Source: Axinella damicornis (Eukaryota > Porifera > Demospongiae > Axinellida > Axinellidae). Taken from it: a stretch of DNA of 64,000 bases. The stretch is from positions 12,066,932 to 12,130,931 of the forward strand of contig OZ007507.1 in NCBI GenBank assembly GCA_963931865.1, read 5' to 3'. The position numbers and the translations under genes are program-made. A model generated the notes under the pieces. The model was not told where the DNA came from, did no database searches, and saw only the letters and a list, made by a program, of their open reading frames with translations. Numbering within the stretch: position 1 is the stretch's first letter; the number at the start of each line of letters is the position of its first letter. Below are positions 1,761 through 63,700 of the stretch, piece after piece.

Positions 1761-1874
1761 ATAGCAACAAATTACTGTAACTATAACTATGACTGATATG
1801 ACTTTAACTATAGGTTAGCAACCCATAATATTTAGTTACCACATTAATTTGGGAGGTTAGTTGAATGGTATATC

Positions 1875-1921
1875 TAGCCTCGTTCCCATGCAGGCCTCCA
1901 CGCCGCCTGGGAATGAGGCTA
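1875..1921. mobile_element. 47-bp micro-MITE with perfect 9-bp target duplication
   Basis: The element starts TAGCCTCGTTCCCA and ends with the near inverted complement TGGGAATGAGGCTA. The 9-mer tggtatatc lies immediately left (1866-1874) and immediately right (1922-1930). A perfect 9-bp target-site duplication is the signature of Mutator-like (MULE) integration. It lies close to the last CFAP68 exon. Confidence 0.85.
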
Positions 1922-2007
1922 TGGTATATCCATATTGAATACAGAATACAATGTACACACTATAGCTGTATTTGAGAAGGAAGTATATAGCTATGGTTTT
2001 TATCAAG

Positions 2008-5000
2008 TCACACATCACCCTTTCCTCCTCCTCCCTCCTCCTTCCTCTCTCTAGTCTCCCCTCCCTCCTCTTCTCCTCCCTCTCTCCCTTTTTTTCCTTC
2101 TGGTTCGCCATAGGCCTCCATAGAGCTAGTAAGGAATGAGTTGTAGTTATGCTTCAGTTGAGGAGGGTCCAGGACGGGCTGGTGAGCAGGGAATGCCGAC
2201 GGCTCATTGCCTTTGGAGGGGATGTGCATGTGCATGGACAAAATGTTTCAGCTATGCGTACCATGCGAAGTGTCTTGGACTGGGATGAGATACATGCAAA
2301 TAAGGCTGAGATAAGTCTAGCCACTAGCTAGCCCCTCTCCACCAGGCCAGTTATGCCTGCTTGACCGGCCGGGCGGAGAGGGGCTAGCGACTAGACTGGG
2401 CTGGAATTGCACCACTGTGATCAGCATGTGTGCATGAACGTTTTCTGATGCTGTTCATTAACTCCAGTATCCGTGAGCATGCATACAAAGCATGCTTAGA
2501 ACCGGTATATATGTCGCATAGATTTTTCAGGCACAATAATTATTGCAATGGGTATACGTTTTCAGGCATAATGGGCTGGAGTTTTGGAATAGCATAAATT
2601 AATGAGACACTTGTTGAGCACAAGGAACTGGTGCCAATATGCCGTTAGGCTGATCAGTGAAATGATGAATTATGCATATACAGCCTTTGCGAATTTTGGC
2701 AATAAATAAATTAAATGCAGCTGACTGACATTACATTTAGGACTTCATTTCGAAGCCATGCTGATCACAATGGCACAATCCCCAGTGTAATATCTCATTC
2801 ACATAACAGATATACAGAGGGTAGGATCAGCCCAAACATTTGAGCTATGTATAGTAGGATAGGTTTCTTGGACATAAGAGGCTGGGGTTTGCACCAGCAT
2901 GAATGGAGCTCTCAAGTTTGCTGTAGGGTGAAATTCGACCCAAAATCCATGGATTATAGCCTCTGGTGACGTTTGGTCAAGTACCGGTATGTTTTTGGAA
3001 AAAAATGTGATCGACATTTACATTTGAAGTCCTTTTCATGCTGATCACAATCACACAATTGCCAGCTTCATATCTCATTCACATACCAAGCTACAATGTG
3101 ACCTTCCTTAGATAACGGATGCACAGGATAGGAATTAGGCCAAACATTTCAGCTATGTACTATGTTAGGTATCTTGGGCTAGGAATGAAGTGGATCTGAG
3201 GCTACACCTTATTGTGAACAGGGAGCACCAGCCCTTGTACAACCCAGCTGTTTCCTCCTCACCTCTGCTGTACCGGAGGCCCTCAGGTACTCGGGGTGGA
3301 GACTTGCTGTATGCCTGACGGTAGGTCGTCTCAAAGTAGTGATCATACTACAGTGTAGGTAAGTGTGTGAGTGTTTGTGGTATGACAATCTCAAGTAACC
3401 TCTGGAATAATCTCCAATAATCTGTAGCAATTGTAGTCCAGTAATCTGTGTACGACCTCCAGTGATCTGTGAATCTTCAATAATCTCTAGTACTGTCAAT
3501 GTGTGTACAACCTCCAGTAAGCAGACTAATCTCAGTAATATGCTATGCTAGCAATATTGCTGTATTAGTGTATGGTTGTGAGCTGTTGCCAATGTCTGTC
3601 AGTAGGGAGTGCTCCTAATCAGATCAGAGAAGACTTACAAGTGCATGGACAAGTGTCAATAGCATAAGGTAGTAATTAACTTTCCCCATAACTTCAATTT
3701 ACTGACAGTTGTAACATCAAAGATTGGTCTCAATTGTGCTGCATTACTATCATACTTAGTCAGGGACTTGGGAATGAGGCTATATCATACTGGGTCCGGT
3801 CATTAACAAAGCTGTATAACAGAAATCATGCAATACGTGCTTGGGCAAGAGGGCTGGGAACAGAGCCTGTGCAGCGGCCGATTCACAAAAAACACGGAAT
3901 ATTTTGTCACTTATATTTCTAGCTGTAAAGAACCAGCTCTCATAGACTAACGTGCACTACATTGAAGGTCATGCACTAACATTATGTACACATCGATCCG
4001 TCTCTGAGCCATCTGTTCTTGCACCCTACTTTGTTATGACAAGCTCAGGAAGTCCACGCCTGGGTTCAAGGCTAGTTAGGGGACTGGTCTGCATGTGACA
4101 ACCTAGTCTCGCGTGGCCCAGACCCTTCCCGCGGCGATTAGTGGGCGGGGCGGGAGGAGGGGAGGAGGGAAGAAGGGTCTGGTGACTCTGAACAAGATGC
4201 CGTTGCAAAATGGAATGTAATTATTGAAATAATCTTCCGTAAATGTAATATTGCACGTGATTTACTCAAGTATACTATACTAGTAGTTAATCGAGCACAC
4301 AGCTAGAGCCATAGCTATCAAGGAAGAGCGCTGTACCGTCTGCCTCAAAGACTTGCCGAAGAGTAGTATGTGAAGGAGACTTAACAGTGAGACATTCCAG
4401 AACCCGTGTGGAGACTCACGGAGACGTCCGTATCGCACGCAAATTATCTTCGCTTTGTTTGGACATTAACTGCGTGTAACCTAGCTGTGAAGCTGCTAAG
4501 GAGGCAGTCTTGAATCTTCTCATCTCGGCCATGTCAAAATCTAGTCACGCACTCAAAGCGGAAATCGTGCCACAAATTACAGGCTTCTTCAATCTGATTG
4601 GCTCTACCCACATTCCGGCAGAGCCAACAACATCTTGTTCAGAGTCACCAGACCCTTCTTCCCTCCTCCCCTCCTCCCGCCCCGCCCACTAATCGCCGCG
4701 GGAAGGGTCTGGGCCACGCGAGACTAGTGACAACCAGGGTACTCTACTACACTGTTGTGATAAGGACAGCAGTACAAATTCCAAGCCAGACTAGTAGCAC
4801 TGGTTACTATAGAGCAAAATGGATGCCAAAGACAGTATTGTGGTGATTCTGCTGCTGTTATCACTCGGTCTGTTTGGTAGTCTGACCTACTGTGTGTGGA
4901 ACAAGCAGTCACAGCTGGCCAGTGAGCTGGATGACCTACAAAACAAGCTGCAGGAGTTGCAAAACCAAGTTGCACTGAATGACAAGGAACAGTTTCAAGC

Positions 5001-8239: not shown

Positions 8240-8256
8240 TGCAGCCACCTGCAATT

Positions 8257-8261
<5 letters not shown>

Positions 8262-8326
<65 letters not shown>
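8262..8326. repeat. Compound (TG)n-(G)n microsatellite
   Basis: About 30 bases of TG alternate, then about 35 uninterrupted G. It lies just upstream (sense) of the CFAP68 exon 8138-8248, so it reads C-run then CA-run towards the acceptor. The G-run has strong quadruplex potential and its true length may be uncertain. Confidence 0.9.
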
Positions 8327-8552
8327 AGAGTAGAAATGGTGACTTGATTGTCTGTAGAACCCATGGTTGGAGAGACGAAGTTCGAAGTTGCTTGCTACTG
8401 TGTCTTCCATGAAGGGCTAGGTTAGGGCTAATTAATTGGTTGTACAAATCACCATCAACTTTGCAAGACACAGTAGCAGAATGAGGATTGTACAGATCAC
8501 TCACTTATGTAATACAGATCATCCATTACCTAGGCAGCACCATACAAGAGAC

Positions 8553-8629
8553 TGGCCTCATTCCCAGGCTCCCCTTGCACGCATGGCGACATCACCGCAC
8601 ACACCGAGGGGAGCCTGGGAACAAGGCTA
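8553..8629. mobile_element. 77-bp TAGCCTCG-family micro-MITE
   Basis: Starts tggcctcattcccaggctcc and ends gagcctgggaacaaggcta. The flanks are acaagagac (8544-8552) and tcaagagac (8630-8638), matching at 8 of 9 positions. It lies in the 5' intron of CFAP68. Confidence 0.8.
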
Positions 8630-9040: not shown

Positions 9041-10197
9041 ATGGCGCTGGTTCCCGGGCTGAACATTGGAGTTGGGCTGCTGCTCCTCATCGTCATTTGG
9101 GCCGCCACACTAGCAGCCACGCTAGCACTCGCAGCAGTGCCAAAGGCGAGGTAGGACCCTTGCGCGCATGACCTCCAGCGCATATTAAATTTTGAGAGGG
9201 AGACCAGCCACTGCACTGGATAGTGTTTTTGTTGCCATGGTTTTCATGTTGAGAACGCCTGTCAGCTTTCAAGCCAGTCAGACACAGTTACAGTTGTACA
9301 ATGTCAAGTAGATCTAGCAGCTGACGGTAGTTCGCAAACAAATTTATTTTGCAACATTTCGATCACCATCTTGTGATCTTCAGGCATCAAGACAGTGATC
9401 GAAGATGCGAAATGAAATTTGTTTGCGAACTACCGAGAACCAATTTCTATAGAACATTGCTGAGTACGGTAACATGACACTAAAGGATTACATCTAGCGT
9501 GAATCTCTTCAATATATTGAAAGACCCCTGAGGCCATTCAGAAAGGGCTATAGCTAGCTACATAGATTGATGCATAGCAAATCATACAAGAGTAGGGATC
9601 ATGGATAATACATTATGTATTATCCAAGATTGGGCAATTTACTGATTCACGTATTGATAATGCATATCCCCCTAGTCTCGTTCCCAGCCCCAAACCAACC
9701 CCAGTGCGGATCGCTTCCAGTATCCCCGCGCGTGATACTGGAAGCGATCCGCGCTGGGGTTGGTTTGGGGCTGGGAACGAGACTACATACGTATCCCCCA
9801 TGGCATGTGTAGGTATGGTATCCCTGTGGTGTTGGTGGTATGTGTTGCTGTCAGCCTCCTCCTCCTCTTCTACCCCCGCCAGTCGCAGGGGCAGCTAACA
9901 CCCAGCACACAAGTGAGTCCTTGCATGAATGTTGTTGGGAGTGTAAAGTGGGTTTGAAGTACACACCACCATTCCTTTGCTACTTCTCCCTCTATCTCCC
10001 TTACTCCTCTCCTTCCTCCTCTCTTCCTCACATCCTCCCCTCCATCACAGGATGTGGATGAGCTCTACTTTGGCAGGCTGGTATTGCTGCTCTTGCTCAG
10101 TGTGTTTCTGGTGGGAGGTGCCGCTGCCATAGCAGTCTTCTACATTGCCGAGCCTGTCCACGCCCAACCATCCAGAACAATGTACATCACGTCATAG
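9041..10197 (+). CDS. TMEM218: TMEM218, ciliary transition-zone membrane protein, spliced
   Basis: Three exons: 9041-9150, 9813-9912 and 10051-10197, with phases closing to 118 aa (vertebrate TMEM218 is about 115 aa from memory). Three membrane segments are clear: GVGLLLLIVIWAATLAATLAL, PVVLVVCVAVSLLLLFYPR and VLLLLLSVFLVGGAAAIAVFY. The tail FYIAEPVHAQP parallels the vertebrate ending ...HYVLEPIYAKP, and DELYFGRLVLL parallels DDFFIGRYVLL. TMEM218 works with the MKS/tectonic module of the transition zone and is mutated in Joubert syndrome. Intron 1 contains two foldback elements. Intron 2 ends in a 75-bp pyrimidine tract. It shares a divergent promoter with CFAP68. Confidence 0.92.
9325..9435. 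mobile_element. 111-bp foldback element in TMEM218 intron 1
   Basis: Terminal arms cggtagttcgcaaacaaatt and aatttgtttgcgaactaccg are perfect inverted complements. The inner parts (tttcgatcac / gtgatcgaa) also pair. No flanking duplication is evident. Confidence 0.85.
9673..9785. mobile_element. 113-bp near-perfect palindrome of the TAGTCTCG family
   Basis: Begins TAGTCTCGTTCCCAGCCCCA and ends with the exact inverted complement. Pairing continues through gcggatcgcttccagtatc to a loop of only a few bases (ccccgcgcgt). It lies in TMEM218 intron 1. Flanking sequences catatccccc and catacgtatccccc resemble each other but are not a clean duplication. Related copies are at 62542 and 63618. Confidence 0.85.
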
Positions 10198-12163: not shown

Positions 12164-12289
12164 AAATCTCGCGGGGCCAGCACGGGGTGCCTGATGGCCT
12201 AGCTCCCGGCTCCCTGGCTCCAAAAAGGGTGCAGGATGATAGTGGAGCGGTTTTTAGGTGGAGAAGGGGGACTGCCAGTGGAGAAGCAG

Positions 12290-15200
12290 CCTGGAGATTA
12301 AATTTGTGCCACGGTGAATGGACATACTAGCCTTCCAGAAGAAACTTGTTCCTCCTCCCGTTATCTGCAGCCACCACCTCCTGTTTGCCTCTCTCCCGGA
12401 TTCAGCAAGTGGTGCAGTTTCTACTTGGAGTACGTGGAGAAGGAGCCTGGACATGATATTTGTGGCTTGGTGAGTGGACATGCTAGCCTTGCAGAACCTG
12501 TTCCTCCTCCCGTCATCTGCAGTGAGCGCCTCCTGTTTGCCTATCATCCGGCTTCAACCAGGGGTGCAGTTTCTACTTGGAGTTCGTGGAGAAGGAGCCT
12601 GGAGATTAAATTTGTGCCACGGTGAGTCAACATGCTATAGCGTTGTAGATACTTGCTCCTCCTCCCGTTATCTGCAGCTAGCACCTCCTGTTTGCCTCTC
12701 TCCCGGATTCAGCAAGTGGTGCAGTTTCTACTTGGAGTACGTGGAGAAGGAGCCTGGACATGATATTTGTGGCTTGGTGAGTGGACATGCTAGCCTTGCA
12801 GAACCTGTTTCTCCTCCCGTCATCTGCAGCGAGCGCCTCCTGTTTGCCTATCATCCGGCTTCAGCCAGTGGTGCAGTTTCTACTTGGAGTTCGTGGAGAA
12901 GGAGCCTGGAGATTAAATTTGTGCCACGGTGAGTCAACATGCTAGCGTTGTAGATCCTTGTTCCTCCTCCTGTTATCTGCAGCTAACACCTCCTGTTTGC
13001 CTCTCTCCCGCATTCAGCAAGTGGTGCAGTTTCTACTTGGAGTACGTGGAGAAGGAGCTTGGACATGATATTTGTGGCTTGGTGAGTGGACATGCTAGCC
13101 TTGCAGAACCTGTTCCTCCTCCCGTCATCTGCAGCGAGCGCCTCCTGTTTACCTATCATCCGGCTTCAACCAGGGGTGCAGTTTCTACTTGGAGTTCGTG
13201 GAGAAGGAGCCTGGAGATTAAATTTGTGCCACAGTGAGTCAACATGCTAGCGTTGTAGATACTTGTTCCTCCTCCCGTTATCTGCAGCTAGCACCTCCTG
13301 TTTGCCTCTCTCCCGGATTCAGCAAGTGGTGCAGTTTCTACTTGGAGAACGCGGAGAAGGAGCCTGGACATGATATTTGTGGCTTGGTGAGTGGACATGC
13401 TTGCCTTGCAGAACCTGTTCCTCCTCCCGTCATCTGCAGCGAGCGCCTCCTGTTTGCCTATCATCCGGCTTCAGCCAAGGGTGCAGTTTCTACTTGGAGT
13501 TCGTGGAGAAAGAGCCTAGAGATTAAATTTGTGCCACGGTGAGTTAACATGCTAGCGTTGTAGAAACATGTTACTCCTCCCGTTATCTTCAGCCACCACT
13601 TCTGTTTGCCTTTCTCCCGGATTCAGCAAGGGGTGCAGTTTCTACTTGGAGTACGTGGAGAAGGAGCCTGGACATGATATTTGTGGCTTGGTGAGTGGAC
13701 ATGATAGCCTTGCAGAACCTGTTCCTCCTCCCGTCATCTGCAGCGAGCGCCTCCTGTTTGCCTCTCTCCCAGATTCAGCAAGGGGTGCAGTTTCTACTTG
13801 GAGTTCATGGAGAAGGAGCCTGGAGATTAAATTTGTTCCGCGGTGAGTCAACGTGCTAGCGTTGTAGATACTTGTTCCTCCTCCCGTTATCTGCAGCTAG
13901 CACCTCCTGTTTGCCTCTCTCCCGGATTCAGCAAGTGGTGCAGTTTCTACTTGGAGTACGTGGAGAAGGAGCCTGGACATGATATTTGTGGCTTGGTGAG
14001 TGGATATGCTATAGCCTTGCAGAAACCTGTTCCTCCTCCCGTCATCTGCAGCGAGCGCCTCCTGTTTGCCTATCATCCGGCTTCAACTAGGGGTGCAGTT
14101 TCTACTTGGAGTTCGTGGAGAAGGAGCCTGGAGATTAAATTTGTGCCACGGTGAGTCAACGTTCTAGCGTTGTAGATACTTGTTCCTCCTCCCGTTATCT
14201 GCAGCTAGCACCTCCTGTTTGCCTCTCTCCCGGATTCAGCAAGTGGTGCAGTTTCTACTTGGAGTACGTGGAGAAGGAGCCTGGACATGATATTTGTGGC
14301 TTGGTGAGTGGATATGCTATAGCCTTGCAGAAACCTGTTCCTCCTCCCGTCATCTGCAGCGAGCGCCTCCTGTTTGCCTATCATCCGGCTTCAACTAGGG
14401 GTGCAGTTTCTACTTGGAGTTCGTGGAGAAAGAGCCTGGAGATTAAATTTGTGCCACGGTGAGTCAAGATGCTAGCGTTGTAGATACTTGTTCCTCCTCC
14501 CGTTATCTGCAGCTAGCAACGAGCTCCTGTTTGCCTCTCTCCCGGATTCAGCAAGTGGTGCAGTTTCTACTTGGAGTATGTGGAGAAGGAGCTTGGACAT
14601 GATATTTGTGGCTTGGTGAGTTGATATGCTAGCCTTGCAGAACCTGTTCCTCCTCCTGTTATCTGCAGCTAGCACCTCCTGTTTGCCTCTCTCCCGGATT
14701 CAGCAGGTGGTGCAGTTTCTACTTGGAGTTCGTGGAGAAGGAGCCTGGAGATTAAATTTGTGCCACGGTGAGTCAACGTGCTAGCGTTGTAGATACTTGT
14801 TCCTCCTCCCGTTATCTGCAGCTAGCACCTCCTGTTTGCCTCTCTCCCGGATTCAGCAGGTGGTGCAGTTTCTACTTGGAGTTCGTGGAGAAGGAGCCTG
14901 GAGATTAAATTTGTGCCACGGTGAGTCAACATCCTAGCGTTGTAGATACTTGTTCCTCCTCCCGTTATCTGCAGCTAGCAACGAGCTCCTGTTTGCCTCT
15001 CTCCCGGATTCAGCAAGTGGTGCAGTTTCTACTTGGAGTGTGTGGAGAAGGAGCTTGGACATGATATTTGTGGCTTGGTGAGTTGACATGCTAGCCTTGC
15101 AGAACCTGTTTCTCCTCCCGTCATCTGCAGCGAGCGCCTCCTGTTTGCCTCTCTCCCGGATTCAGCTAGGGGTGCAGTTTCTACTTGGAGTTCGTGGAGA

Positions 15201-18200: not shown

Positions 18201-19865
18201 TGTTTGCCTATCTCCCGGATTCAGCTTGGGGTGCAGTTTCTACTTGGAGTTCGTGGAGAAGGAGCCTGGAGATTAAATTTGTGCAACGGTGAGTCAACAT
18301 GCTAGCGTTGTAGATACTTGTTCCTCTTACCGTTATCTGCAGCTAGCACCTCCTGTTTGCCTCTCTCCCGGATTCAGCAAGTGGTGCAGTTTCTACTTGG
18401 AGTATGTGGAGAAGGAGCTTGGACATGATATTTGTGGCTTGGTGAGTTGACATGCTAGCCTTGCAGAACCTGTTGCTCCTTCCGTGATCTGCAGCGAGTG
18501 CCTCCTGTTTGCCTATCTCCCGGATTCAGCTTGGGGTGCAGTTTCTACTTGGAGTTCGTGGAGAAGGAGCCTGGAGATTAAATTTGTGCAACGGTGAGTC
18601 AACATGCTAGCGTTGTAGATACTTGTTCCTCTTACCGTTATCTGCAGCTAGCACCTCCTGTTTGCCTCTCTCCCGGATTCAGCAAGTGGTGCAGTTTCTA
18701 CTTGGAGTATGTGGAGAAGGAGCTTGGACATGATATTTGTGGCTTGGTGAGTTGACATGCTAGCCTTGCAGAACCTGTTGCTCCTTCCGTGATCTGCAGC
18801 GAGTGCCTCCTGTTTGCCTATCTCCCGGATTCAGCTTGGGGTGCAGTTTCTACTTGGAGTTCGTGGAGAAGGAGCCTGGAGATTAAATTTGTGCAACGGT
18901 GAGTCAACATGCTAGCGTTGTAGATACTTGTTCCTCTTACCGTTATCTGCAGCTAGCACCTCCTGTTTGCCTCTCTCCCGGATTCAGCAAGTGGTGCAGT
19001 TTCTACTTGGAGTACGTGGAGAAGGAGCCTGGACATGATATTTGTGGCTTGGTGAGTGGATATGCTATAGCCTTGCAGAAACCTGTTCCTCCTCCCGTCA
19101 TCTGCAGCGAGCGCCTCCTGTTTGCCTATCATCCGGCTTCAACCAGGGGTGCAGTTTCTACTTGGAGTTCGTGGATAAGGAGCCTGGAGATTAAATTTGT
19201 GCCACGGTGAGTCAACATGTTAGCGTAGTACGTAGATGCTTGTTCCTCCTCCCGTTATCTGCAGCTAGCGACGAGCTCCTGTTTGCCTCTCTCCCGGATT
19301 CAGCAAGAGGTGCAGTTTCTACTTGGAGTACGTGGAGAAGGAGCCTGGACATGATAATTGTGCCTTGTGAGTTGACATGCTAGCCTTGCAGAACCTGTTC
19401 CTCCTCCCGTCATCTGCAGCGAGCGCCTCCTGTTTGCCTCTCTCCCGGATTCAGCAAGGGGTGCAGTTTCTACTTGGAGTACGTGGAGAAGGAGCCTGGA
19501 GATTAAATTTGTGCCACGGTGAGTCAACATGCTAGCGTTGTAGATACTTGTTCCTCTTACCGTTATCTGCAGCTAGCACCTCCTGTTTGCCTCTCTCCCG
19601 GATTCAGCAAGTGGTGCAGTTTCTACTTGGAGTACGCGGAGAAGGAGCCTGGACATGATATTGATATTTGTGGCATGGTGAGTGGACATGCTATAATTCT
19701 ATAGCCTTGCAGAAACGTGTTCCTCCTACCTTTACCTACATCCAGCGGCTCCATTTTGCCTATCTTCCGGCTTCAACAAGGGGTGCAGTTTCTACTTGGA
19801 GTTCGTGGTGAAGGAGCCTGGAGATTAAATTTGTGCTACGGTGAGTCAACATGCTAGCTATGTAG
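12290..19865 (+). repeat. Array of about 50 exon-like modules (99-nt block plus 53-54-nt spacer)
   Basis: A unit of about 152 bp repeats through 7.6 kb, organised as A/B dimers of about 305 bp. Each unit has a block of exactly 99 nt in the copies counted. The block is preceded by a pyrimidine-rich stretch ending ctgcag and followed by gtgagt. The 53-54-nt spacer therefore has the form of a minimal GT-AG intron. In the phase where A blocks are open (PPVCLSPGFSKWCSFYLE...), B blocks end in TAA. B blocks are open in the two other phases, where A blocks carry a stop. So no single frame crosses A and B. Copies differ by scattered substitutions and small indels. 16602-17230 recurs almost unchanged at 18899-19530, and about 17985-18900 holds three near-identical dimers. 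It is either a minisatellite that captured splice signals or a repeatedly duplicated exon. Confidence 0.85.
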
Positions 19866-24275: not shown

Positions 24276-24433
24276 TCACTGCATATATATAGCTGTGTAG
24301 CTATTCCCATTATTAGTGCTGAGCAACAACAAGTCTAGCTGGCAGTGTAGTGTATTCAGAAGTATATAGCAAGCTATCTATTCTCCCGTCGCTGTGTCCT
24401 GCACTGAAGAGGCAACAATAGCAATTGTTCATA

Positions 24434-28976: not shown

Positions 28977-33161
<4,185 letters not shown>

Positions 33162-36615: not shown

Positions 36616-39459
36616 ATGCATGGATGTGTGCATGTGTGTGCATACAAGATTGCTGTTAAGGAATAATTATGTGCGAGTAAGCATGCACACTTTTTTTAGT
36701 CTACCGAGCAGAGTTTGGTAGACTATAGCCTCGTTCCCAGGCTCTCGTTCTGGGAATGAGGCTAGGTAGACTATGAGACGTGCTTGAGGCTGGAGCAATA
36801 AGGTTTGAAAGAACTCTACAGTTATTTTATTGCTGTGGACTTCTCTCTCTGTCTCCATAGCTTACGTAATTCCATCAAACATATAGGGCTGCGTGATAAT
36901 CATGAATTTCGAGATACTATTTAGATACAATTTCACATTGGTTTTCAAAAAAAACAATGCAATAATGAGACACGAACTGACTTATCGCATGCTGCAAAAC
37001 TGGCTGTTTATGCTGAATGTGATTGGAATTTCTATGTGGCCATATTGACTAGGGACACTATATGGCTAGTAATGTTCAGCAAGGGGCTCTTGTGTAGTGC
37101 TGGTTAGACGGAATTACACCAGTCGAGATTTCCAATTTGAAAATGCAATGTTTCGACCACTCTTTCTTGGTCTTCTCATATACACACTTAGAAACAGCAC
37201 AGTGAGCTACTTACAAATGCATATGATTATACAAATTACATCATTGTCTACGTAAAGAAGGAAATTACATCATAATAATAAAACTTATAATTGTCTCGCC
37301 ATTGTTTGAGCTGCTTTCTCCCCGCACACATGCTATGCTGATTTTCTATAAGTAGCTCACTGTGCTGTTTCTGTATAACTGCCTGAAGAAGACCAACAAA
37401 GAGTGGTCAAAATGTTGTATCTTCAAAAGTGGAAATCTCGACTGGTGTAAGTCAGACTAACCAGTGCTACATGCTAAGGGGCTCTTGTGTTTCCAAGAAG
37501 GGTTCTTCTACCCTTCAGAAAAGTTTGGAGACTACCCGGTTCTAGTGTCCCACTGTTGTGGGTGTGACTTACAATATCCCATTAAGGAATTGCTGTATGA
37601 GGATGGCTGTGAGCACGATGCCGACAATGGCGTGGGGGAAGTTGGGCTGGCTCCAGGATCCCACCAGGAAGATGATCACAAAACCAGCCACAGTCAGAAG
37701 GAGACCAGCAGACTGCGAAAAGGAAGTAGGGGTCAGGTAGGTGGAGGGAAAGAGGAAGGCGAAAGGAGAGAGTGAGGGGAGGAGGTGGAGGGGAGAAGAC
37801 CCAAGCGGTGATCACAAACAAAGTACATGATGTCTTTTACAGCGGAGGGTTGTGCCAAGGTTGGCTGCACGAAATAGAGACACAATATACTACACCTGCT
37901 TTTAAATTATTTGAAAATCTGCAATTTTAAAACTCAAGAATTAGCAAAATCACAATTAGTAATTATTTCCCTGGTACGGTAATAGGTATATTCCAGATGA
38001 GATGGTTAGAACAAAATTTCAATGTAGGCCAGGGAACGAGGCTAACAATTTCATTCCTAGCCTGAACATAATTGCACTTGTGTCATGTTTGACAGTCTGG
38101 GCCCGCCGGCCACCTGATATTTGCAGCAATACGGCTGAAACTCCTGAAAACATGTCAGTTAATTAGAATAATTGACGCATTGTAGGCCAGGGAACGAGGC
38201 TAACAATGTGTTCCTAGCCTGAACGTAATTGCACTTGTGTCATATTTGACAGTCTGGGCCCGCCGGCCACCTGATATTTGCAGCAATATGGGTGAAAACA
38301 TGTCAGTTAATTATTGGTGTATTATAGGCCAGGGAACGAGGCTAACAATGTGTTCCTAGCCTGAACGTAATTGCACTTGTGTCATATTTGAGCTATCGTG
38401 GTAGTCACGTAATGTGTGATAATTGGAACGAACTGTCACACTTAGCTTGTGCTACCGTTTAACCGCGGCTACCAGGAGTGTGGTTGCCCCTCGGTTAATT
38501 GAGAATAATTGGTGTATTGTAGGCCAGGGAACGAGGCTAACAATGTGTTCCTAGCCTGAACGTAATTGCACTTGTGTCATATTTGACAGTCTGGGCCCGC
38601 CGGCCACCTGATATTTGCAGCAATACGGCTGAAACTCCTGAAAACATGTCAGTTAATTGAGAATAATTGACGCATTGTAGGCCAGGGAACGAGGCTAACA
38701 ATGTGTCCCTAGCCTGAACGTAATTGCACTTGTGTCATGTTTGACAGTCTGGGCCCACCGGCCACCTGACATTTGCAGCAATATGGGTGAAAACATGTCA
38801 GTTAATTATTGGTGTATTGTAGGCCAGGGAACGAGGCTAACAATGTGTTCCTAGCCTGAACGTAATTGCACTTGTGTCATATTTGAGCTATCGTGGTAGT
38901 CACGTAATGTGTGATAATTGGAACGAACTGTCACACTTAGCTTGTGCTACCGTTTAACCGCGGCTACCAGGAGTGCGGTTGCCCCTCGGTTAATTGAGAA
39001 TAATTGGTGTATTGTAGGCCAGGGAACGAGGCTAACAATGTGTTCCTAGCCTGAACGTAATTGCACTTGTGTCATGTTTGACGAAAACAGAACAATTGGC
39101 ACATTGAAAACGATAGGAGAATAAAGGAATAGGAGAAGCTTGAGCATGATCTACCTCTAGCCTCGTTCCCAGGCCACATGGGAATGAGGCTAGATCTACC
39201 TCCTACCCACCTGGCAGATGACGTGAAGGATGAACCAGCACGGCCATGTCCAGCGGTAGTACCTGCCCAGCAGCGCCCCCAGCGGCAGTAGCAGCCCCCA
39301 CGCTGCGTACATCAGGGCTCCATGGAGGTGGACAAACGTGAAGGTGGGGGAGGGGCAGCCAGTCTCATCCGAGCCACCCCCATCCCCAATTAGTCGCCAA
39401 GCATCATTCACAAAGGTTTGCTGCGGCCTGTTGTGAGTGTGCGTGTGTGTGTGTGTGCG

Positions 39460-39533: not shown

Positions 39534-42500
39534 ATTTCACAACGAGAAGTGCCCAGTAGAGCATTGGCCTACTGTAAAGATCAAAGTATAGAGTTGTTGA
39601 TAATTGGACAGAGACTAGAGCGAAAACCTTGCTTTTCAGAGCTATATATATGACTAGAGAAAGTAATAGATTACAATGTACAATACGGAAAGACTACGGA
39701 ATCTGCATGTATGCACATAACTCTTTGCAGCTCAAACTGGATCTGGCTATTCTGGACTGGCCTGGTCTATAGTCACACCTACCTCAGCCCCACCCCTTTG
39801 CATGGCAACTGAAGGAATGTTGATTGTACAGTTTCGTAGACTCAACCATTATGGCAAGGTTAATTCAGAGTGCAAGGTGTGACCTTCCTGACTATTGTGG
39901 CCGGCTGGTGTGGTCATCATACAACTCTCATTTGTGAGATATGGAATGCTATGCCACAGAAAGGGGAGGCCTGTGTGAATCATGTTAGGAAAATTTTTGT
40001 GGGACTCACTCATCAATTGTCCTCCCTCCAAATAGGACCATGTCTCCACTCGCAGACACAACAAAGGTGCTACCCTCAATCCGGGAGGGTAGACTAAGAC
40101 CAGTGGCCAGCATTCTCATCCACGTGGAGTTGTCAGCATCGAGTACATAGAGCTCGCTGGAATTGTAGTCAGGCCCGCTGATCTTCTGTGGGAAAACACC
40201 TCCACCTGGACCAGTGTTGTCATTGCCTCCCCACAGCACTGCCATCCTGCGGGGACCTAGCATCTGTGAGGAGATGGTGGAGAGGGAGGGGGAGGGAGAA
40301 GGAGAGAGGGGGAGAGAGAAAGAAGGGGATGGGGGGGAAGGGACACAGGGAGGGAGGGAGGGAGGGAGGGAGGGAGGGAGGGAGGGAGGGAGGGAGGGAG
40401 GGAGGGAGGGAGGGAGGGAGGGAGGGAGGGAGGGAGGGAGGGAGGGAGGGAGGGAGGGAGGGAGGGAGGGAGGGAGGGAGGGAGGCAGGGAGGCAGGCAG
40501 GCAGGCAGGGAGGGTGGGAGGGAGGGAGGATTGAAGGAAGAAAGGGGAAGGAGAGACACAGGGAGGGATGAAGGGAGTGAGGTTGGGAAGAAGGGAGGGA
40601 GGAAAGAATGGAGGGAGGTAGGGAGGGAAGGAGGTAGGGACGGAGGGGAGGAGAGGGAGAGGGAAGCAATTGTCACGCACAGCAACCTTGTGGCAACGTG
40701 TCATCTAGACTCTAAATCCCCAGTACATGTAGCTGTTACATGTAGCTACTCACAGGCACCATGACAGCTCCATTTCTTGGTGAGGGGCACTGAGGGAGCT
40801 CTTCCCACACCCCACTCTCCAGTGTGATGCGCCAGACGTCCTGTAGTGGGCACGGGCCACCCACCTGACCGCCACTGTTGTGTATGTGTGTGTTGGGGTG
40901 GGGGTAAGTGTGTAAGTGTGTGTGTGTGCGTGTGCGTGTGCGTGTGCGTGTGTGTGTGTGTGTGTGTACTCTGTCAACAGTGCACCACACTCACCTGGCA
41001 CATCCGCCAAATATAACAAAGGTATCGCCGGACAGAGGTGCTCCAGCGTGCTGTGATCTGGCATGTGGCATGAAGGGATTGTACTGGTTCAGTCCTTTCC
41101 CTGGCGATACCAGCCTCCACTCTCCTGGGGAACAAACCGACCAATCATGTTACTTCCCTCAATGAATGATCCTCAAATCATTCAATTGTGGTCTACTAGA
41201 GAATACTAGAGATTACTGGAGATACCTTCATAGTCAAATCATCTACAATCCTACGATACATTTTCACGTAAAGTTGCAATACACGTGATCCCATATTCGT
41301 TCCCAGGCCTTCACACCCCAGCACTACTAACTACTACAAGCGAGGCTAATTGGTTGTTAAAGTACCGCGGCGAGTGCACTACGACAAATATTGCACAAAG
41401 GTTGAGAGGCTAATATAGCACGAGGCTTCGCCTCGAGACCATGCCCACGTGCACTATGTTCCCTAGTGTACAGCATAAACAGTACTGGTTTATTGCAACA
41501 TATACAGAGTGCTATTTCTGGTGCTATATTTCCCGGTGGAAAATATATTATGCGCATTGTGGGAATTAAGGCACACTTCGGCCCTTTCATCTTCTATGGC
41601 TTCATACAATAAGACGTTATATGCCCTTTGGCTTTGATAAGACTCAGTGGACTGAATGCTTGATTGGGATTGCACAAAATATACTCCAATTTCGGAAGAC
41701 TTTACAGGAATAATATACATTGTAAATTTGGATGATATTTTTAACCATGGACAAACTCCTATAAATCATGATTCTAACCACTTTTCCCTTCTACAAAATG
41801 GACCAATCAATTATCAAGAGTTCATAATATATCCACCCAGCAGACCAACCAGATTCCTTCCATCCAACAAATGGAGCCCTCCAACTACCAATTGCAGCAG
41901 ACCATTTGTGTAGCCTCATACCCAGGCTCGCCTCCCGCGCGCGGTAAGAGGAAATGAGCCTGGGTACGAGGCTACCATTTGTGGGTATTAGATTTTGTTC
42001 GGGTATCTTTCAACTCCAATGCCCTGGCGAGTGATACGAACTGGGTCAGAGGCTAGCCTCGTTCCCAGGCCACCTGGGAACGAGGCTAGGTCAGAGGCCA
42101 GCTGAATGGGTTCAGCAGGAAAGAAGGAATCTTGTAAGGTACCATCCACCAGCAACAGAAACCTAAGCACTGCACACACAATCATCAATTCCATTCCCAT
42201 CACAAGAGGTAATGGGAGCAGCTTTGTTGTGGTTGCAGAGAGCACCGGCTCAACATGCCAGTGTTGTGGGGATGCACTACTAGTGTGTGGGGATGCATAG
42301 AGTGCACCGGCTCCTGGTTTAGAAGCTTGCAACATGCTAGTGTTGTCTGACACCAGCATTCCTGTTTAGTTAGGTATCATCGTACTGTTGTCATAACACC
42401 GGCTGGCGTCACTATTGTGGAGGGAGGTACCTGATTGGTCAGCAGTGGAAGGCAGCGATCTACACACACACACACAGTGACACACACACACAGACACACA

Positions 42501-49600: not shown

Positions 49601-52600
49601 AGGGCACCAAAAGTTGCAAACATTACATACATGTATGGTTAACTGGTTGGGCAGTATAACCTAACCCCCCAACCACATATACATGTATGCATAACATAAT
49701 GAGAAAAGTGCAATTTTTGGTGCCTTCTAGCTGCCATAATAAGCAAGCTTTAGGCTTCTAACTTGGAGGCTTCACTAACTACCCTAAGGCCTACAAAGAA
49801 ATCAGATTGCCAGCCCCCTCCGAAATGTTTGGGGTGGGCTCTATTTAGACTTATGCAAATGTGTACAGCTGTATAGACATCACACACACACACGTACATA
49901 CACACACACGTACACACACACACACGTACACAGTCATTGCAGGAGGCATTTACCAAGAACCCAGTGCCCTCGGCTGGGGCGCAGCAGGACGTGAGCGAGT
50001 TCACTCATAAGCTGCTGGAGTGGATCGAGGATGCCTTCACTTTCAGCCTTGGAAATAAGCGGTGAGCCACATTTCTTGCAACAGCAGACCACCACCACTT
50101 CTACCTCACACCACTTCTACCTCACACCACATGACTCGATCCTTCCTTCCATTGCTCTTGCCTTCCTGCTTTCTTCCCTCCCTCCCTCCTCCCCAATCCC
50201 TCCCTCACCCCCCTCCCTCACTCCCCTCTCTCCCTCCTCCCCAATCCCTCCCTCACTCCCCTCACTCCCACCCAATCCCTCTCCTCCCTCCCACCCAATC
50301 CCTCCCCTCCCTACTCCCTCACCCCCCCTCCCTCACTCCCCTCTCTCCCTCCTCCCCAATCCCTCCCTCACTCCCCTCCCTCACTCCCCTTCCTACTCCC
50401 CAATCCCTCCCTCCTCTCCCTCACTCCTCCCCAATCCCTCCCTCATTCCCCTCCCTCCCTCCCTTCTCCCCAATCCCTCCCCAATCCCGCCCCCTCCCTC
50501 AATCCCTCCCATCCCTCCTCCCCAATCCCTCTCCCTCACTCTTCCCTAATCTCTCCCCCTCCCTCACTCCTCCCCAACTTCCTCCTCCTAAATCCGTCCC
50601 CCCAGGGCAAATCCAATGCTGGAGTTATTTAATGGGCAATACCTGACGGAGGGTGTCATAGGAGAGAAACCGTTTGTGAACGAGTCTGAGTTTGGGGCAT
50701 TCCCAATGCAGGTCCAGAGCCACACCCACTTACATGATAGCCTTGAGGCTGCAACCAGCAACCCAGAGATGCAGCAGGAGGTACAGTACCTTACCCACTC
50801 ACACCTGCACCCACTCACACCTGCTCCCTCATCCCCATCATCCATCACCCTTGCATCCCCTCACCCCCACAGACTTGCTACTTTTCACTTCCTCATCCCT
50901 CAAACATGTACTTGCACCCCCTCCCCCTCCTCCTCTCACTTACACCCTCTCCCCCTCCTCCTCTCACTTGCACCCCCTCCCCTCCTCCTCTCACTTGCAC
51001 CCCCTCCCCCTCCTCCTCTCACTTGCATCCCCTCCCCTCCTCTCACTTGCACCCCCTCCTCCACTCACTTGCACCCCCCTCCTCCTCCTCTCAATAGACC
51101 AGTTGCACGGAAGAGTTAAGGAATTTCAATTGCTGTGACGTTACATCCGGTTGCTCTTTTGCAGCCGCGTTAAGTATTGCAGTGAATGGCAAAATCGGCA
51201 GGTGGGCGGTTTGAAATGCGCGCTTACCAAAATCTATACAGTTTACATAATTTAAGTGACCATAGTTACAAACAATAGAGCTGGGCGTTGACGACGGTGT
51301 GCGAAGAAAGAAAATCGGTTGCAGTACGAACGAGAACGACGCGGTTTAATTTGCTGGATCGAGAAATGCCTGGACATACCTGCACCGTTTGCGGCAACAA
51401 CCGTAGCCAGGACCCAAGCGTCTCCTTCCACCGATTCCCAAGCAATCCAGATAGGAGGGCAAGGTGGCTGAGCGTGTTTGGGATGGAAGAGAGCGAGCTG
51501 CGGTCGCAGACGCGAGTTTGTTCCAGGCACTTTCCCGATGGCGATGCCAAAACAGAACCTATGGCAACCTTGGGTAAGAGGTTTGCGTCGCCAATAAAGG
51601 GAAAGCTTCCCAGAGCAAAGCGAGCGAAGTCAAGGGATGTCACAAGGAGTTTGCTGAAATGAGGCGTTCTGTGGTGAGTAGGCCTGTCGAAACGTCCTCG
51701 CTTCCAACCCCAATGGATCTGCCTGGTGATGATGTTGGAATGTTCAATACCACATTAACATCCTCGTCCCCAGCTCCTACATCTGCATTGATAGGACAAA
51801 GCTCAGAGCTCCTAGTGAGCACAGCTCTCCTTGCCAGAATTGATGCACTGGAAGCAGAAAGCAGCCGTCTGAAAAGTACCATTAACAGCCAGCCTTTGTA
51901 CTTCAGGATTGAGCAAATCCAGAATGATGACCATCTTATACGTTTCTATACTGGCTTCGTATCATATATAATCTTCATAGCATTTTTTGAGTTTCTGGGA
52001 CCTGCGGTCAACACTCTTAATTACTGGGGTTCAGGAAAACATGCTCGTCAAAGGCACTATTCTCGCAAATTGAACCCTAAAAATCAGTTCTTCCTAATGC
52101 TAGTGAAGCTGAAGCTCAATCTAAAAGTTCAAGATCTTGCTTTTCGTTTCGGAATCTCAACTAGCTCGGTATCTCGCTACTTAACAACATGGATTTGTTT
52201 TCTTTATCATCATTTAAAAGAGTTAGATTGGTCACCATCTATTGAACAAGTTATGGGCACATTACCACACTCTTTCCGGAAGAACTTTCCTTCAACCTAT
52301 GCAATAATTGATGGCAGTGAGATATTCATACAAACACCTTCAGATCTTTATATGCAATCCTCAACTTGGAGCAAAATTCTTGTTGCCTGCACCCCAAATG
52401 GGGCTATCAGCTACATTTCCCCAGTGTTTGTTGGATCCATCTCGGACATTGAACTGACTAGAGCTTCCGGTTACCTAAAAACACTGCAAGACAAACCTGG
52501 TATTTCGATTATGGCTGATAGGGGGTTCACCATAAAGGACATGCTGAAGGAGTTGAATATTGAACTGAATTTGCCACCTTTTATGGAGGGGAGAAAGCAG

Positions 52601-55600
52601 CTTCCCGCTGAGGAAGTGCAGGATGGGAGGAAGATTGCATCCTTACGCATACATGTAGAGAGGGCAATTGGAAGGATCAAGACCTTTTCCATTTTAAAGG
52701 AAACCATTCCAATCAGTCTTGCTCGTCTTACGAATCAGATCGTACATGTCTGCGCTTTTCTGTCTAACTTTCATCCTGCTCTTGTTCCTCTGGCAGAAGC
52801 AACATCAGAGGACAGTGTTGAGGAGTACATAGAGGCACTTAGTGATTCTGAAAGCAGTGATGAGTCCGATTGTGAAGATACCGTAGATCCGGAAATTTTC
52901 GCGTTAAATATACTTCGCCTTTTAATTTTTCGCGTTGTTTTATTTTCGTCGCTCGAGTACACCGACGAAAATTAAACCACGGGAAAATTTTGTTCACGCG
53001 TATATACACGTGCACGTTCCCGATCCCGGGACCAGATACCACGTCGCGCCATTGGAGAGAAGCTGGAGCCTCGGACCAGCGCCAGCGAGGGAATGCAGCA
53101 GATGCCCATGCCGTATCACTGGTAGAGAGGGAACTGCCATCGGCTACTTACCTCGAAAGATTTCACCCGTCTGTCTCGGTCCGCGGTTCCAACTGCCTTC
53201 AGAAGTTCGCTTCCACGATCGCGCGCTTGAGCTGGTATAGAAGAGCTCAGCGATCTTCCAGGATAAGGAACACCATCGACAGGTTTCTGGTAGCGCAGCA
53301 GAACCGTGCTTGTACTTCGATTCACGAAAACTCGCATGTTAAATAGAATCATAAATTATTCGACATTGAAAATATTTCGTGTTTTTAATTTTCGTCGTAA
53401 TGTAATATCGACGAAAATTAATTACGGCGAAAATTTCCGGATCTACGGTAGTAGTGTCTTATGTTAAGGAAACTTACTCCCCTTCCCAGGATTTTGTATA
53501 ACACTCTTTGCATCATACATTAATAATTCATTTCAGATTACGGATAGGGAGTCCCAGTACATGTACTGGGCTGACAATTTCTGGCCCAAGAATATTATCA
53601 TAAAACTCAATCAATTTTGGCAGAAGAATGTTCTCCCAGTAGTCCTTGTCAAACTGTATACGTTGTACACTGATTCCCTTGGTGGTATACACTACAAAGT
53701 CACACCATGGCTTGCCACCAACACCCATTTGGCCCTGGACTTGTGCATAATAAATGTGGTTCCTACGTAGATATAACTGTTGAGTACCATCAGAATTGGC
53801 CTCCAGTGAACAGCAAAATCCCGAAGTTGAGGAAGCTTCCTCAGGTGTGTTGCTCCGATGTGAGTATGGGCACTTAACCTCTAGAAAGCCAAAAGGTTCA
53901 TCCAGGTTCAGTGGATCGTACACTACACCATCAGGGGTAGCACCAAGGTATGGGTGTGATTTGCTGATATGGAAACCACATGGAGCAACCGATAAATTTG
54001 GGTGACCATGACCTTGCTGGTGTCTGATGTACTCCTGGATCGCTAATGGTTCCTGATGGACTCCCCACTCAGTCGCAGCAGATTTAAACTGCTTTGGTTG
54101 CAGGATCTTCAGCACCAAAGCATCTGGGGGTGTATCAGGTCTTCGTCGAAGGATGACTCCAAATATTGAGGCTGTGATTCGGTAGCGTCTCACTTCATAC
54201 CAGAATGGAGAGTTCCTCTGATTTCTCGTATCACACTCAATCCTGTGTATAGTATCACCAGAGGTTGTGAGACTATCCTTAAATGCCTGTACTGTTTCTC
54301 TTAAGGCTGCTATGTTTGGAAGTGCAGGCTCCGACACTGTTTTGGCACCGTCCCAGTGGCGGAAGTGGTCATCAAAGAGCAGTGAGACACACAGATTTTC
54401 ACCACGAATCTTTTCCAAAAGAGCAGGAAGGCCAGCACGTACAGTACCTCTAAACTCAACAGGGCGAGGATCAAAATCCTCCAATGGCTTCAATTTTCTC
54501 TTATTCTCCTTCCCGTAGACATGTTTCTCAAAGGGCGCTTCTGCCAGTGGCATAGTGCTCTCTTTTCTTTTTCTAGGCTGTTTCCATTGACAAGGTTGAG
54601 ATGTTACAGGCACAGTTTCATCATCAGTGCCCAACAGATCAGCTTCAGGGATGCCAGCAGTTGGTTGAAGCTGGAACTGAGAAGCTGTCATGGACACGAG
54701 TGCATGTAGTAGTGCTGATATATGAGTGCAGCTTGCTGATTTCCTGAATGTGGCAAACATAAGCATTACGAAGTCAACAAAGCACAACCAGAACATAATA
54801 ATTATTATGCACATTTACCATGCAGCACACTCGCATGTTGCACGCTGAACAGAGGCAAAGGGTCCATCTCGTCCTAGCAGTAACCACACATGGTAGCTAC
54901 CAGGCTTCATTGAGGGCTTCATGACTGATTGGATGTGGCAGTACTCTGGATGCTGGGTATTAATGTCTAGGCGGTCAATGCGGCCTGACGCCCAGTGAGT
55001 GTATCCCTGAGTAAGTGCCCTGAATGTTCCCTCACCACTCTCACGACCAGCATGACTAGAAAGGTAGGTATAGATGGTACCAGCTGTGACACGAGGAATT
55101 CTTTTTGCCAGGTCATTGGCATTGCTCTCGGTCACACACTCCCAACCAGTGATAGGGGAAGATGGTGGGTTCAAGGGGGCGATTACCAGTCCAGAATCTT
55201 CAAGTCTTCTACACTTTTTGTACAGGTATGAGCCATCCACATCAATAACCTCAGCATTGTCCTTGACAGCCTGGTGAATCCTGCAGCATGATTATAGCTA
55301 GTATTTAGCTACAGCAGCGAACAAATCAGTCGCAAAGTGTCTATATTACCAACCAATGAATTTAGCTCACCTGTTGATCAACTGCTTTTTCCTCAGGCTT
55401 GAAGGTACCTTTAGACCCCTGCAGAGAAGCCACCATCTCAGTGCCGGCACCGCGTGGGACTCTAGGGGCTCGCTCAGGACTGCTCCCGGTATATCCGTGG
55501 CACTAAGCACCACAGAAGCCATGGCTATTATGAATAATAATGTAGAGGGAATACTTGGGCTGTTCTATGCCTCTGGACAGAAGTAAAACCGTGTCGTTCT

Positions 55601-58600: not shown

Positions 58601-61600
58601 ATGGGCTCAAACTAGGATAGTGACGATACTGACACTCCGCGTACTCCGAATGTATTGTGTACCAGTTGGTGACTTTGTGTACGTATATGTCACACACGCA
58701 CAACTCTCACTCATACACACACGACTCACACTCTCACACGTGTGGTAATATAATGATGTCGCAACATGAATAATGACAGTTATTCAACCATCAATATCAC
58801 TTGCAACTTTGAATGGCCTAACGGTGTTACTGTAGCTGCATTGGAAATAAATCGTGATCATAACTTCCAAATTAGATACTATACATGTAGATGTTGTGAT
58901 AGGTGACATTATTATTGTGACATTAATATGACTTAGCAGTTCCTACATGTATATCGTGCGTACGTGGCATATCCCTAATACATAATTATGCACTCACACA
59001 TCACACATACATGTGCATGCACACTAGTAATGCTTTAGCGCTTCCACAAGCCAGGCTGGTGACACGAGACCCTCTCCCCTCGTAGGTAGAGTCCGAGCGC
59101 GAGACTACCACTCCCCAGACCCGCCTGGAGGGTGGTGCTGGTGTGCTGGCACCTGCCTCCTCAGAGGAGACTCTGGTGGAGGGTGAGGCCTCACCCCTGG
59201 CTGCCCAACACACTGGCAGTCATCCTGTTCGCAGTCCTGAGCGGATGCAGGTCAGAGGGAGATGGATACTCGGTCTGTTGCACTGGTTGTGTGTATGATC
59301 CTTGATGGTCCCCTCTGTTGTAGGTGGACCCCTCTCCCTCCTCCCCCCCTCCCCTCCCTGTCCACCCCCTCCTCATTTCTGAGCTAGCGATACGCCTGGA
59401 GCACAAGCACCAGCTGATAGCATCTCTTGCGACAGATACCCTCGTCGACCCACGGGCTGTGACCCTTGCTTCCTACGCACTGCACTCAGGTGTGCCAGAA
59501 AGTCTTTTGAGGGCGTGTCTGCTACCAGAGGTGGAGCGAGAGGCAGGGAGGTGCGTTTCGTCTGCGTATTTATTCCAGTTCATGCACATCACTAGTTTAC
59601 AGCTTTCACTGTAGATGTACATGTACACCCCTCTTTTACTTCCTCTCCACTTTCCCTCCTCCAGGACTGACCTTGTGCTCCTAGCTAAGAAGCAGTTAGT
59701 AGCTCTCCTACACCAACAGGGGATGCAGACAAACCTTGAGGTGATCTATTTTAACCAGCTCTGCTTGTGCAGTACACATATGACATCATGGTTGTACCAT
59801 GTATATACATGTACACTTGTCGGGAGCTAAGTACAGTGAAGGAGTGTGGAACTAGCAACTGAGCAACTCTTGTTGAGTGGAATGCCAGAAAACTCCTTAT
59901 ATAGATTGTGGATTTGCAGGATATCACCTGCCGGTAGCCTCGTTCCCAGGCCGTCTGCCGCTTCGTTTTTAGTCGCATATGTGACCTTTGAACCCCCATC
60001 AGATAAGCTGAAGGACTGGTACCACTCCTACGTCATTTACAAGCAAGGTGGACACGCTGGCACATTGCCATTTTACATGAAACGGTGTCCACCTATGTCA
60101 CAACCGTGTCCGCCTTGCTTGTAAATGATGTAGGAGTGGTACCAAGCCTTCTGCCAGCTTATCTGACGGGGGTTCAAAGGTCACGTATGCGACTAAAAAC
60201 GAAGCGGCAGACAGCCTGGGAACGAGGCTAACCTGACAGCTCTGATCTGTTGAGTCATTTGTACTAGCAGTGACATGCTGGAATAAACAAAGCCTGGCCA
60301 TACCTACTCTCAGCTACAGACTAAATACGTACCTCTTTTAATCTCAGAATGTAGTGAACAGCAAATCCAACCTTCTCTTGACAAAATCACCATTCCCTCG
60401 GGCCCTCAGCAGTGACTCTGAGGCAGTGATGTACACATACATGCAGTGTTTACTGTTCAAGTCTTGTTACTCTATTGATGGTCACAGATCCACATGATCT
60501 GTTTTGCAATCTGATTGCATGGAGCCGCCTGGTTTCAGGTGCCAGAAATCAGTGGTTTGACCCCCCGCAATATTACCAGGCTCTCTCCTCCCTAAGAGGA
60601 AATGAGCCTGGGTACGAGGCTAGGCACTCATAGGCTCCAGGTACTTGTACATGTATGACTGTTTCATATAGTCACCATGGTTACATGCACAAGTCTGGAC
60701 CACTTTCACATTGACTGTGTCCTAGGTGAGACATTGGTACGCTCTCTCTCCCTCCCAGAACCTCCGCATGCTGTACAAGTGGTACTGTTCCGCATGCTAC
60801 CACTGTGTTCAGGCCGCCCGCTACATCTCACAAGAGAAGTGAGTATTCCCACTGCGGTGCGTGTACTGTGTATCACTCTGTTGTGTTGACTGGTACTGTT
60901 GTTGCAGGTGGGAGATGGCGTTGACATACGCAGTGCATGGGAGTACTGTGAACACCGCTATAGTGCAGAGTTCTAGCAAGCAGCTGGCCGTGGACCCAGA
61001 GGTGGTGGGAGAGATCAGACGAAGGGCGGTACAGGTGACTTGTTGTGATGAGTCAGGAATGAGACAATGAATGGAACATGTATAGTCCACCTGCACAAGG
61101 TAGAGCCCATTGCCCACCTGGTGTTGCCCCACCTGCGCATGGTGTTGCCCCACTTGCGCATGATGTTGCCCCACCTGCATGCGCATGATGTTGCCCCAGC
61201 TGCACATGGTGTTGCCCCACCTACCTGCGCATGGTGTTGCCCCACCTGTGCATGGTGTTGTGGTGCCCCACCTGCGCATGGTGTTGTGTTGCCCCACCTG
61301 CGTGTTGTTGCCCCAGCTGCACATAGTGTTGTGGTGCCCCACCTGCATGTTCAAAATGGCAGTTCTGTGGCAGAGCTAATAGCTGTACAGTCGTGAACAA
61401 TGGACTGGGTGTCCACCCAGCATCGTTCCCAGGCTCGTAGGGACATAGTCTCGTGCCCAGCTGGAAACCTACGGAGTAACCGTCTGGCGACTTTCAGCAA
61501 CATTCACAGCTCAGCTAACTGCCTGAACCGGACAGAACCGGAAGTCCTACGCATTAAATAATATACGTAATTGCAAGATAAATTTGCAACTTAATTCTTG

Positions 61601-62865: not shown

Positions 62866-63600
62866 ATCCTTGATGTCACTCTCTCTTGTATGTAGTCACT
62901 GCTTAATCCATTCCTCTCTCTGACTTAATGTGCTGCCCGGCCTAGATCTGTTGGGACATTCCTATCATTAATACTACTTGTGATCAGATCGATAAAACGT
63001 GATTACTGTGGTTACAAGTAGCGTCAAGTTGTGACCTAGCCTTGAACCCTGGAGCATCGGAAGGAGAGAGTCGTTGTCGTCGTCGTCCCCCCCCCATGCA
63101 CCTGGGACCCTGGGTGGATGGATGCCCAACCACCTTTAGCTTGCACTCCTACTAGTGCTTACGCTATCTCAAATTCAATTCCCATGCAGTGCAATTATAC
63201 TTCAATGCATTGTTTCCCACTCGGCAATAGAACCACTGGAGCAACTATTAATATACTTTCTTCAGCTGAAGTTGTTTGCAGTAGTAGGTAAATGCACTGT
63301 AAGGAATCCTAATGTATTTACATGAGGTAACAGGATATGGTTGCACAGGCCAACTAGTCCGGGGGGGCCCCAACCATCTTTCTATATAGAACACCTCACC
63401 CTCAACCTTTTACTTGAGGGCACATTGACCGTCGGCGGCTCGATACGCCCTTGTTAACACAGAAACCACTAGCTGTTGTACTTGAGGAATCCTGCCTCGG
63501 GCAGAACAAGGTACTTGAGCAGTTGTGCAATGTAACACTCCAAATATTGACCTGGTGCTATAGTGCTATATAGCAGTATTTATCAGTTTATGTGGGCCCA
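62866..63600. other. 3' region of USP25/28 and intergenic sequence
   Basis: No further exon seen. A gtcgtcgtc plus C-run lies at 63075-63098. No canonical AATAAA is obvious close to the stop. Confidence 0.4.
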
Positions 63601-63617
63601 TGCAGTATCTCTTGAAG

Positions 63618-63700
63618 TAGTCTCAGCCCCAGCCCCAAGCCAACCGCGGTGCGGATCGCTCCCCATGCTATGGTTGGTTTAGGATCTGCAGCCAAGACTA
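63618..63700. mobile_element. 83-bp TAGTCTCG-family relic
   Basis: tagtctcagccccagcccca at the left, gccaagacta at the right, with gccaacc.cggtgcggatcgct in common with 9673-9785. No target duplication. Confidence 0.6.

Follow-up and report, generated by a model that had tools for sequence, protein, structure and literature searches.

How a palindrome of 35 bp, little longer than its own two arms, comes to lie between two copies of the same nine or ten bases, and whether a unit of this size has itself moved, are the questions raised by a 64-kb stretch of the Axinella damicornis genome (C3:12066932-12130931 of a 226-Mb assembly; this whole stretch is the window, to which plain coordinates below refer). 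The original prediction, made on the window, named five such elements with exact 9- or 10-bp flanking repeats that differ from site to site, and all five are found where it placed them. The first is a 47-bp palindromic element (1875..1921), a hairpin with TAGCCTCG...CGAGGCTA-type termini and one mismatch in each 16-bp end, which lies between copies of TGGTATATC (1866..1874 and 1922-1930, 9/9). It is followed by a 39-bp element (36726..36764) between copies of GGTAGACTA (36717..36725 and 36765-36773, 9/9), a 35-bp element (39158..39192) between copies of GATCTACCTC (39148..39157 and 39193-39202, 10/10), a 64-bp element (41911..41974) between copies of CCATTTGTG (41902..41910 and 41975-41983, 9/9) and a second 35-bp element (42054..42088), with 16-bp ends that are exact on both sides, between copies of GGTCAGAGGC (42044..42053 and 42089-42098, 10/10); these features, and the other window elements described below, are given without strand. 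As claimed, two positions distinguish the two 35-bp copies from each other, and a 35-mer identical to the second is present at C1:4996495, where it is flanked by a different duplication (8/9).

Flanks agreeing at seven or eight of nine positions had been claimed for three further copies, and two of these stand. A 77-bp element (8553..8629) lies between ACAAGAGAC and TCAAGAGAC (8/9), and a 296-bp foldback element (59935..60230), both of whose 16-bp ends are exact and which has a 573-bp relative in another part of the genome, has flanks that agree at 7/9. A convincing partner was not found for 61446, the best available pairing being that of a neighbouring end at 61418 with 61744, which has 8/10 flanks and degenerate ends. 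Two near-perfect hairpins with family-type termini, of 113 bp (9673..9785) and 110 bp (29437..29546), have no duplication, and in the former the same departure from the family end is seen in both arms (TAGTCTCG / CGAGACTA). Altogether the window contains 20 left and 25 right 16-bp ends with four mismatches or fewer, seven of the right ends being part of a tandem repeat (38023-39082) and not separate elements. Collagen repeats and a ubiquitin hydrolase domain are among the window's reading frames.

In the whole 226-Mb genome the exact 16-mer TAGCCTCGTTCCCAGG has 10,965 forward and 12,067 reverse matches, 23,032 in total, a density of about one exact end per 10 kb, and the same pattern read backwards gives 0 forward and 0 reverse matches. 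Hairpins composed of two exact 16-bp ends with 0-30 bp between them number 1,304, a count that takes in the units of tandem arrays (control, 0). When the viral contig and genome contig collections were searched with the hairpin pattern no match was found, and literature searches with end-sequence strings and by topic gave no report of a TAGCC-ended family.

The flanking repeats were compared with chance in a sample of 292,200 bases, made up of the window, MULE loci and the surroundings of exact ends, without eight loci that repeat others and without three tandem-array loci (L-numbers denote sampled genomic loci). Left and right ends with three mismatches or fewer per end, no more than 2 kb apart, form 78 pairs in this sample (rows that are in part dependent, since two MULE copies carry the same insertion at L028 and L035, and that of L058 represents two tandem elements), and the flanks are equal at 9/9 in 20 and at 8/9 in 6, compared with 0.45 and 0.12 respectively expected per shuffle when the right flanks are shuffled among the pairs. 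Exact duplications in the same sample are 9 bp long in 20 cases, 10 bp in three, 8 bp in one (L004) and 7 bp in one. A second sample holds 35 short hairpins of 32-62 bp, taken from the 39 non-array hairpins among the matches listed; 12 have an exact 9-bp duplication, one has an exact 10-bp duplication, nine have a 9-10-bp duplication with one mismatch, 12 have none, and one is uninformative in that its flank match lies inside a CA repeat. The other four of the 39 listed hairpins have an exact 9-bp duplication in three cases and an 8/9 duplication in one. Mispaired flanks of the short hairpins gave exact 8-10-bp matches in 0 of 1,190 comparisons, a control that covers exact matches only. Exact 9-bp duplications are present even at two perfect 32-bp palindromes, in which the 16-bp ends stand back to back, and among nine longer copies (360-632 bp) the duplication is exact in seven, has one mismatch in one and is absent in one. 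Both the shuffle of the 78 pairs and the mispaired flanks place the duplications in these genome samples far above chance, the opposite of the outcome that had been named beforehand as speaking against insertion. At the first two positions of the duplications G seems to be in excess, as does C in the final two, each with a frequency of 0.42 (38 duplications, strands pooled).

Insertion with target duplication is further supported by paralogous empty sites, which now add to the duplications and were found for four elements, of 1,681, 43, 44 and 44 bp. When the flanks of the 1,681-bp element are joined with one copy of the duplication, a retroelement-like reading frame runs on, and the joined flanks (query 1-300) match C7:4777003-4777288 across the junction with 87 % identity; this empty site has a single AGAAGGAAG, and its 14 gap positions are all away from the junction. 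Among 23 short elements searched together, three were positive. The joined flanks of the 43-bp element make up 38 of the 40 scored places, three of which were aligned (98.6-99.3 % identity, with one exact AGGATGACC); for two 44-bp elements the identity of the empty site is 97 % in one case and 86 % in the other, with one mismatched base in the single target copy of each. No empty site was seen for the other 20 of the 23 among 40 scored of 415 candidates, and 3/23 is accordingly a lower bound. We note that these observations also bear on the reading of the hairpins as conserved structural RNA or regulatory palindromes, with flanking repeats that would be due to chance or repeat-mediated. The hairpins are predicted to be stable, as this reading would have it, but flanking repeats so far above chance and the presence of empty sites contradict it, and we regard it as highly improbable; a search of the window against Rfam gave 0 matches at gathering scores.

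The longer copies belong to several families with unrelated interiors, and only the outermost 16 bp or so are common to all. The first family comprises copies of 632, 625, 622, 620, 499 and 360 bp, the 499- and 360-bp copies being internal deletions. The second (584-590 bp) has about 70-80 terminal bases in common with the first, at roughly 80 %, and an unrelated interior; the third consists of copies of 573 and 565 bp together with the 296-bp window copy, and copies of 586 and 369 bp have little beyond the outermost 16-18 bp in common with the rest. The end pattern of the first two families is found 151 times forward and 152 times reverse (control, 0), and the 100 matches listed include 21 neighbouring end pairs, of which 19 span 576-638 bp and the others 360 and 499 bp. 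In 13 longer copies the longest stop-to-stop frames are 60-124 codons, and seven of these longest frames gave no Pfam match that reached cut-off. The 1,681-bp element was considered as an autonomous copy and rejected, since it is a member of the 632-bp family with about 1 kb extra, and in three of its ORFs no Pfam family reaches cut-off. Short elements with inverted terminal repeats, no coding capacity (in the 13 longer copies and the 1,681-bp copy), a near-constant duplication length and empty sites have the properties of MITEs, and we conclude that these elements are a very abundant, apparently non-coding group of terminal inverted repeat (TIR) DNA transposons of this type.

How the shortest copies arose, and what moved the group, can be answered with less certainty. 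We think it probable that this is a non-autonomous group whose ends, TAGCCTCGTTCCCAGG...CCTGGGAACGAGGCTA, would be recognised in trans by one common transposase, which would make a 9-bp, sometimes 10-bp, staggered cut and would most likely be of the Mutator/MULE kind, and that the palindromes of 32-60 bp are mostly internally deleted remnants. The middle of a hairpin-forming element may have been lost by slippage between short repeats, or alternatively by incomplete gap repair after excision, and the model for both routes would be the 'nearly precise excision' of Tn10, which leaves some 50 bp inside a 9-bp duplication. In the Tn10-type process (PMC12524634) a hairpin assists deletion between short direct repeats, and the expected product would be a short palindrome still enclosed by the duplication; that system is bacterial, however, and the hairpin-slippage route proposed for the TAGCC elements is drawn by analogy with it.

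The short copies are read mainly as remnants because there exist both a deletion series and copies with broken ends inside duplications. Of the right end, L001 (30 bp) and L056 (57 bp) have kept no more than about 10 bp, and both lie inside 8/9 duplications; L064 (27 bp) has kept less than this inside an exact 9-bp duplication. The right end of L006 is lost, yet GCTTTGAGC flanks the remnant, although a third GCTTTGAGC nearby weakens the case. These four broken-end copies probably could not have jumped in their present state and, with the deletion series, they favour shrinkage after insertion. The duplication itself dates from insertion, at whatever length the element then had, and the mobility of 35-bp units therefore does not follow from it. 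An inner CCTGG, in inverted sense to the end, was looked for within 65 bases of 88 ends that are not joined directly to a right end. It is present at 22 of them, where inner left arm and outer right end thereby share a direct repeat, and was not found there at the other 66, so that the proposed deletion repeat is not general. Decomposition of the 35 short interiors into the arms of known longer copies yielded no clear junction rule.

That the 32-60-bp palindromes were instead mobilised as units themselves seems to us unlikely, although several observations speak for it, among them the exact 9-bp duplications at the two perfect 32-bp palindromes and a group of array loci described below. The 44-bp class has 96 copies genome-wide. 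The 50 copies listed, in which all 32 end bases are exact, have 39 distinct interiors, and identical interiors recur 6, 4, 2, 2 and 2 times; in the sixfold set L144 and L145 are one duplicated locus and L141 has no duplication. L104, L142 and L143 have identical interiors and different exact duplications, as mobile short units would. Moreover, 26 of the 39 distinct interiors have a neighbour that differs at a single base, and when such neighbours are linked the 50 listed copies fall into 19 groups, the largest of 18 and 10 copies. On the other side, the truncated copies show that deletion after insertion occurs, the variation among the 44-bp interiors is similar to that found in the ends of longer copies, as would be expected if varied parents had undergone deletion, and abutting 16-bp ends would leave nothing to loop for end pairing in cis. 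The 39 distinct interiors are not strong support for remnants, since they form 19 groups at one-base linkage; the variety of the 44-bp class is weaker support, and it is possible to fit it either with amplified short units or with deletion from varied parents. We are equally doubtful that the perfect palindromes of 32-45 bp, which are two abutting 16-bp ends with hardly anything added, were transposed as units by some transposase. If they were, end pairing would need no DNA between the ends, and to our knowledge such palindromes would rank among the smallest mobile DNA elements.

The ends also occur in tandem. Exact 16-bp ends in direct orientation and 5-30 bases apart are found 762 times (305 forward, 457 reverse; control, 0), and the 100 pairs listed come from 30 loci, of which 16 contribute one pair each and 14 several rows. 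Five of the 30 are those that agree with mobile short units: a 34-35-bp element opens the repeated unit, and a spacer of 9-10 bp separates it from another left end; the L040 array, with a unit of 49 bp plus AGCCTGGAC, is akin to these five. Other arrays repeat one end alone, as in L041, where GCTAGCACG plus 16 bp is repeated, followed by one full element and then GCTAGCATG. Spacers of the listed pairs span nearly the whole range permitted by the pattern, and duplication-sized spacing is therefore not a general rule. The arrays could have formed by repeated insertion into the duplications or by slippage between them. For the P element, PMC9659126 describes multiple insertions at one site that give tandem copies with a duplication-sized junction, and those arrays here with units of an element plus a 9-10-bp spacer are similar, whereas the others repeat a single 16-bp end and their spacers vary in length.

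As to the enzyme, nine-base duplications are typical of MULE or Merlin elements, the range for Mutator/MULE being 8-11 bp, and hAT and P elements make duplications of 8 bp. The lengths observed here, predominantly 9 bp with some of 10, lie within the Mutator/MULE range, and it is solely this length that places the group in the Mutator superfamily. Integration of the MULE type had been predicted, and the 9-10-bp duplications, the inverted repeats and the presence of MULE-domain genes in the same genome agree with it; the MULE ends that could be read do not. Matches to the MULE domain (PF10551) are found at 51 places genome-wide, where the open frames reach 1,336 codons, and PF10551 was recovered in all eight MULE frames sampled, in two of these with scores under the curated cut-off. 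In the 36 of these 51 places that were examined (as stretches of about 3-10 kb, often short of the element ends) none is bracketed by a TAGCC end pair with matching flanks, and MULEs were thus not found as direct owners of the TAGCC ends among these partly covered loci. At the six MULE loci with readable inverted repeats, these repeats are 89-111 bp long (324 in L086) and begin with GGG (L080, L081, L083 and L085), CCGGG (L082) or TTATTAG (L086), and not with TAGCC. The L080 MULE has an exact 9-bp duplication, and that of L082 adjoins a satellite. At L085 a MULE and a 573-bp TAGCC element adjoin, with the flanking GACAACAGA common to both, a single case that hints at shared target choice.

The lack of TAGCC ends at the examined MULE loci would be in keeping with a transposase of another superfamily, be it Merlin, hAT, P or one not yet described, which we view as somewhat unlikely. 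The IS1595-type DDE transposase domain of Merlin (PF12762), however, has 0 matches in the genome, and the 8-bp duplications of hAT and P disagree with lengths that here are mostly 9 bp; for hAT in particular, one exact 8-bp duplication (L004) stands against 20 exact 9-bp and three exact 10-bp duplications. A Mutator/MULE-type transposase acting in trans on the TAGCC ends is the reading that we prefer.

Close parallels to the TAGCC group are provided by Tetris/DAIBAM, a foldback element and a MITE of Drosophila virilis (PMC4079207). As described there, these are likewise modular non-autonomous elements in which the final parts of the inverted repeats are common, with 8-10-bp duplications, a provisional placement in Mutator and no autonomous copy found, and they too are a source of satellite repeats. 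The likeness is one of description; in the TAGCC group the common end measures about 16 bp and many copies amount to no more than a 32-60-bp palindrome, and the group is unusual in its extreme reduction and copy density. It offers a natural size series that runs from about 630 to 32 bp, with one end sequence and clean target duplications in a single genome, and makes testable both the minimum size of a DNA transposon that still moves and the ways in which palindromic elements shrink and seed minisatellites. With about one exact end per 10 kb, these elements matter for the assembly, the annotation and the hairpin-related instability of the Axinella damicornis genome.

Elsewhere in the same genome, at the sampled locus L085 (1793-8913), a 573-bp element of the TAGCC family of palindromic MITEs adjoins a coding Mutator-type (MULE) transposase element, and the flanking 9-mer GACAACAGA is present in three copies, common to the MULE and the 573-bp element. 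Within the window, a DDE_Tnp_4 transposase frame on the plus strand neighbours a YqaJ nuclease frame on the minus strand (51578-54814), a gene pair known from ISL2EU/PHIS-type transposons. A further frame of 1,361 residues (24422-28507) contains a match to the right-handed beta-helix and has 34 further relatives among the protein database matches listed, one of them at 58% identity.

The 113-bp hairpin at 9673-9785 carries the same departure from the TAGCC-family end in both of its arms, as though one of them had served as the template for the other. The window also contains a 7.6 kb tandem array with a 152/305-bp unit (12278-19895).

Seven right-type TAGCC-family ends lie inside another tandem repeat (38023-39082), as though a satellite had taken up the end of a transposon. 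At several loci elsewhere in the genome (L041, L039 and loci on C1 and C2 among those listed with 16-bp ends in direct orientation), the minisatellite unit consists of one 16-bp transposon end and a spacer, with the spacers private to each array.
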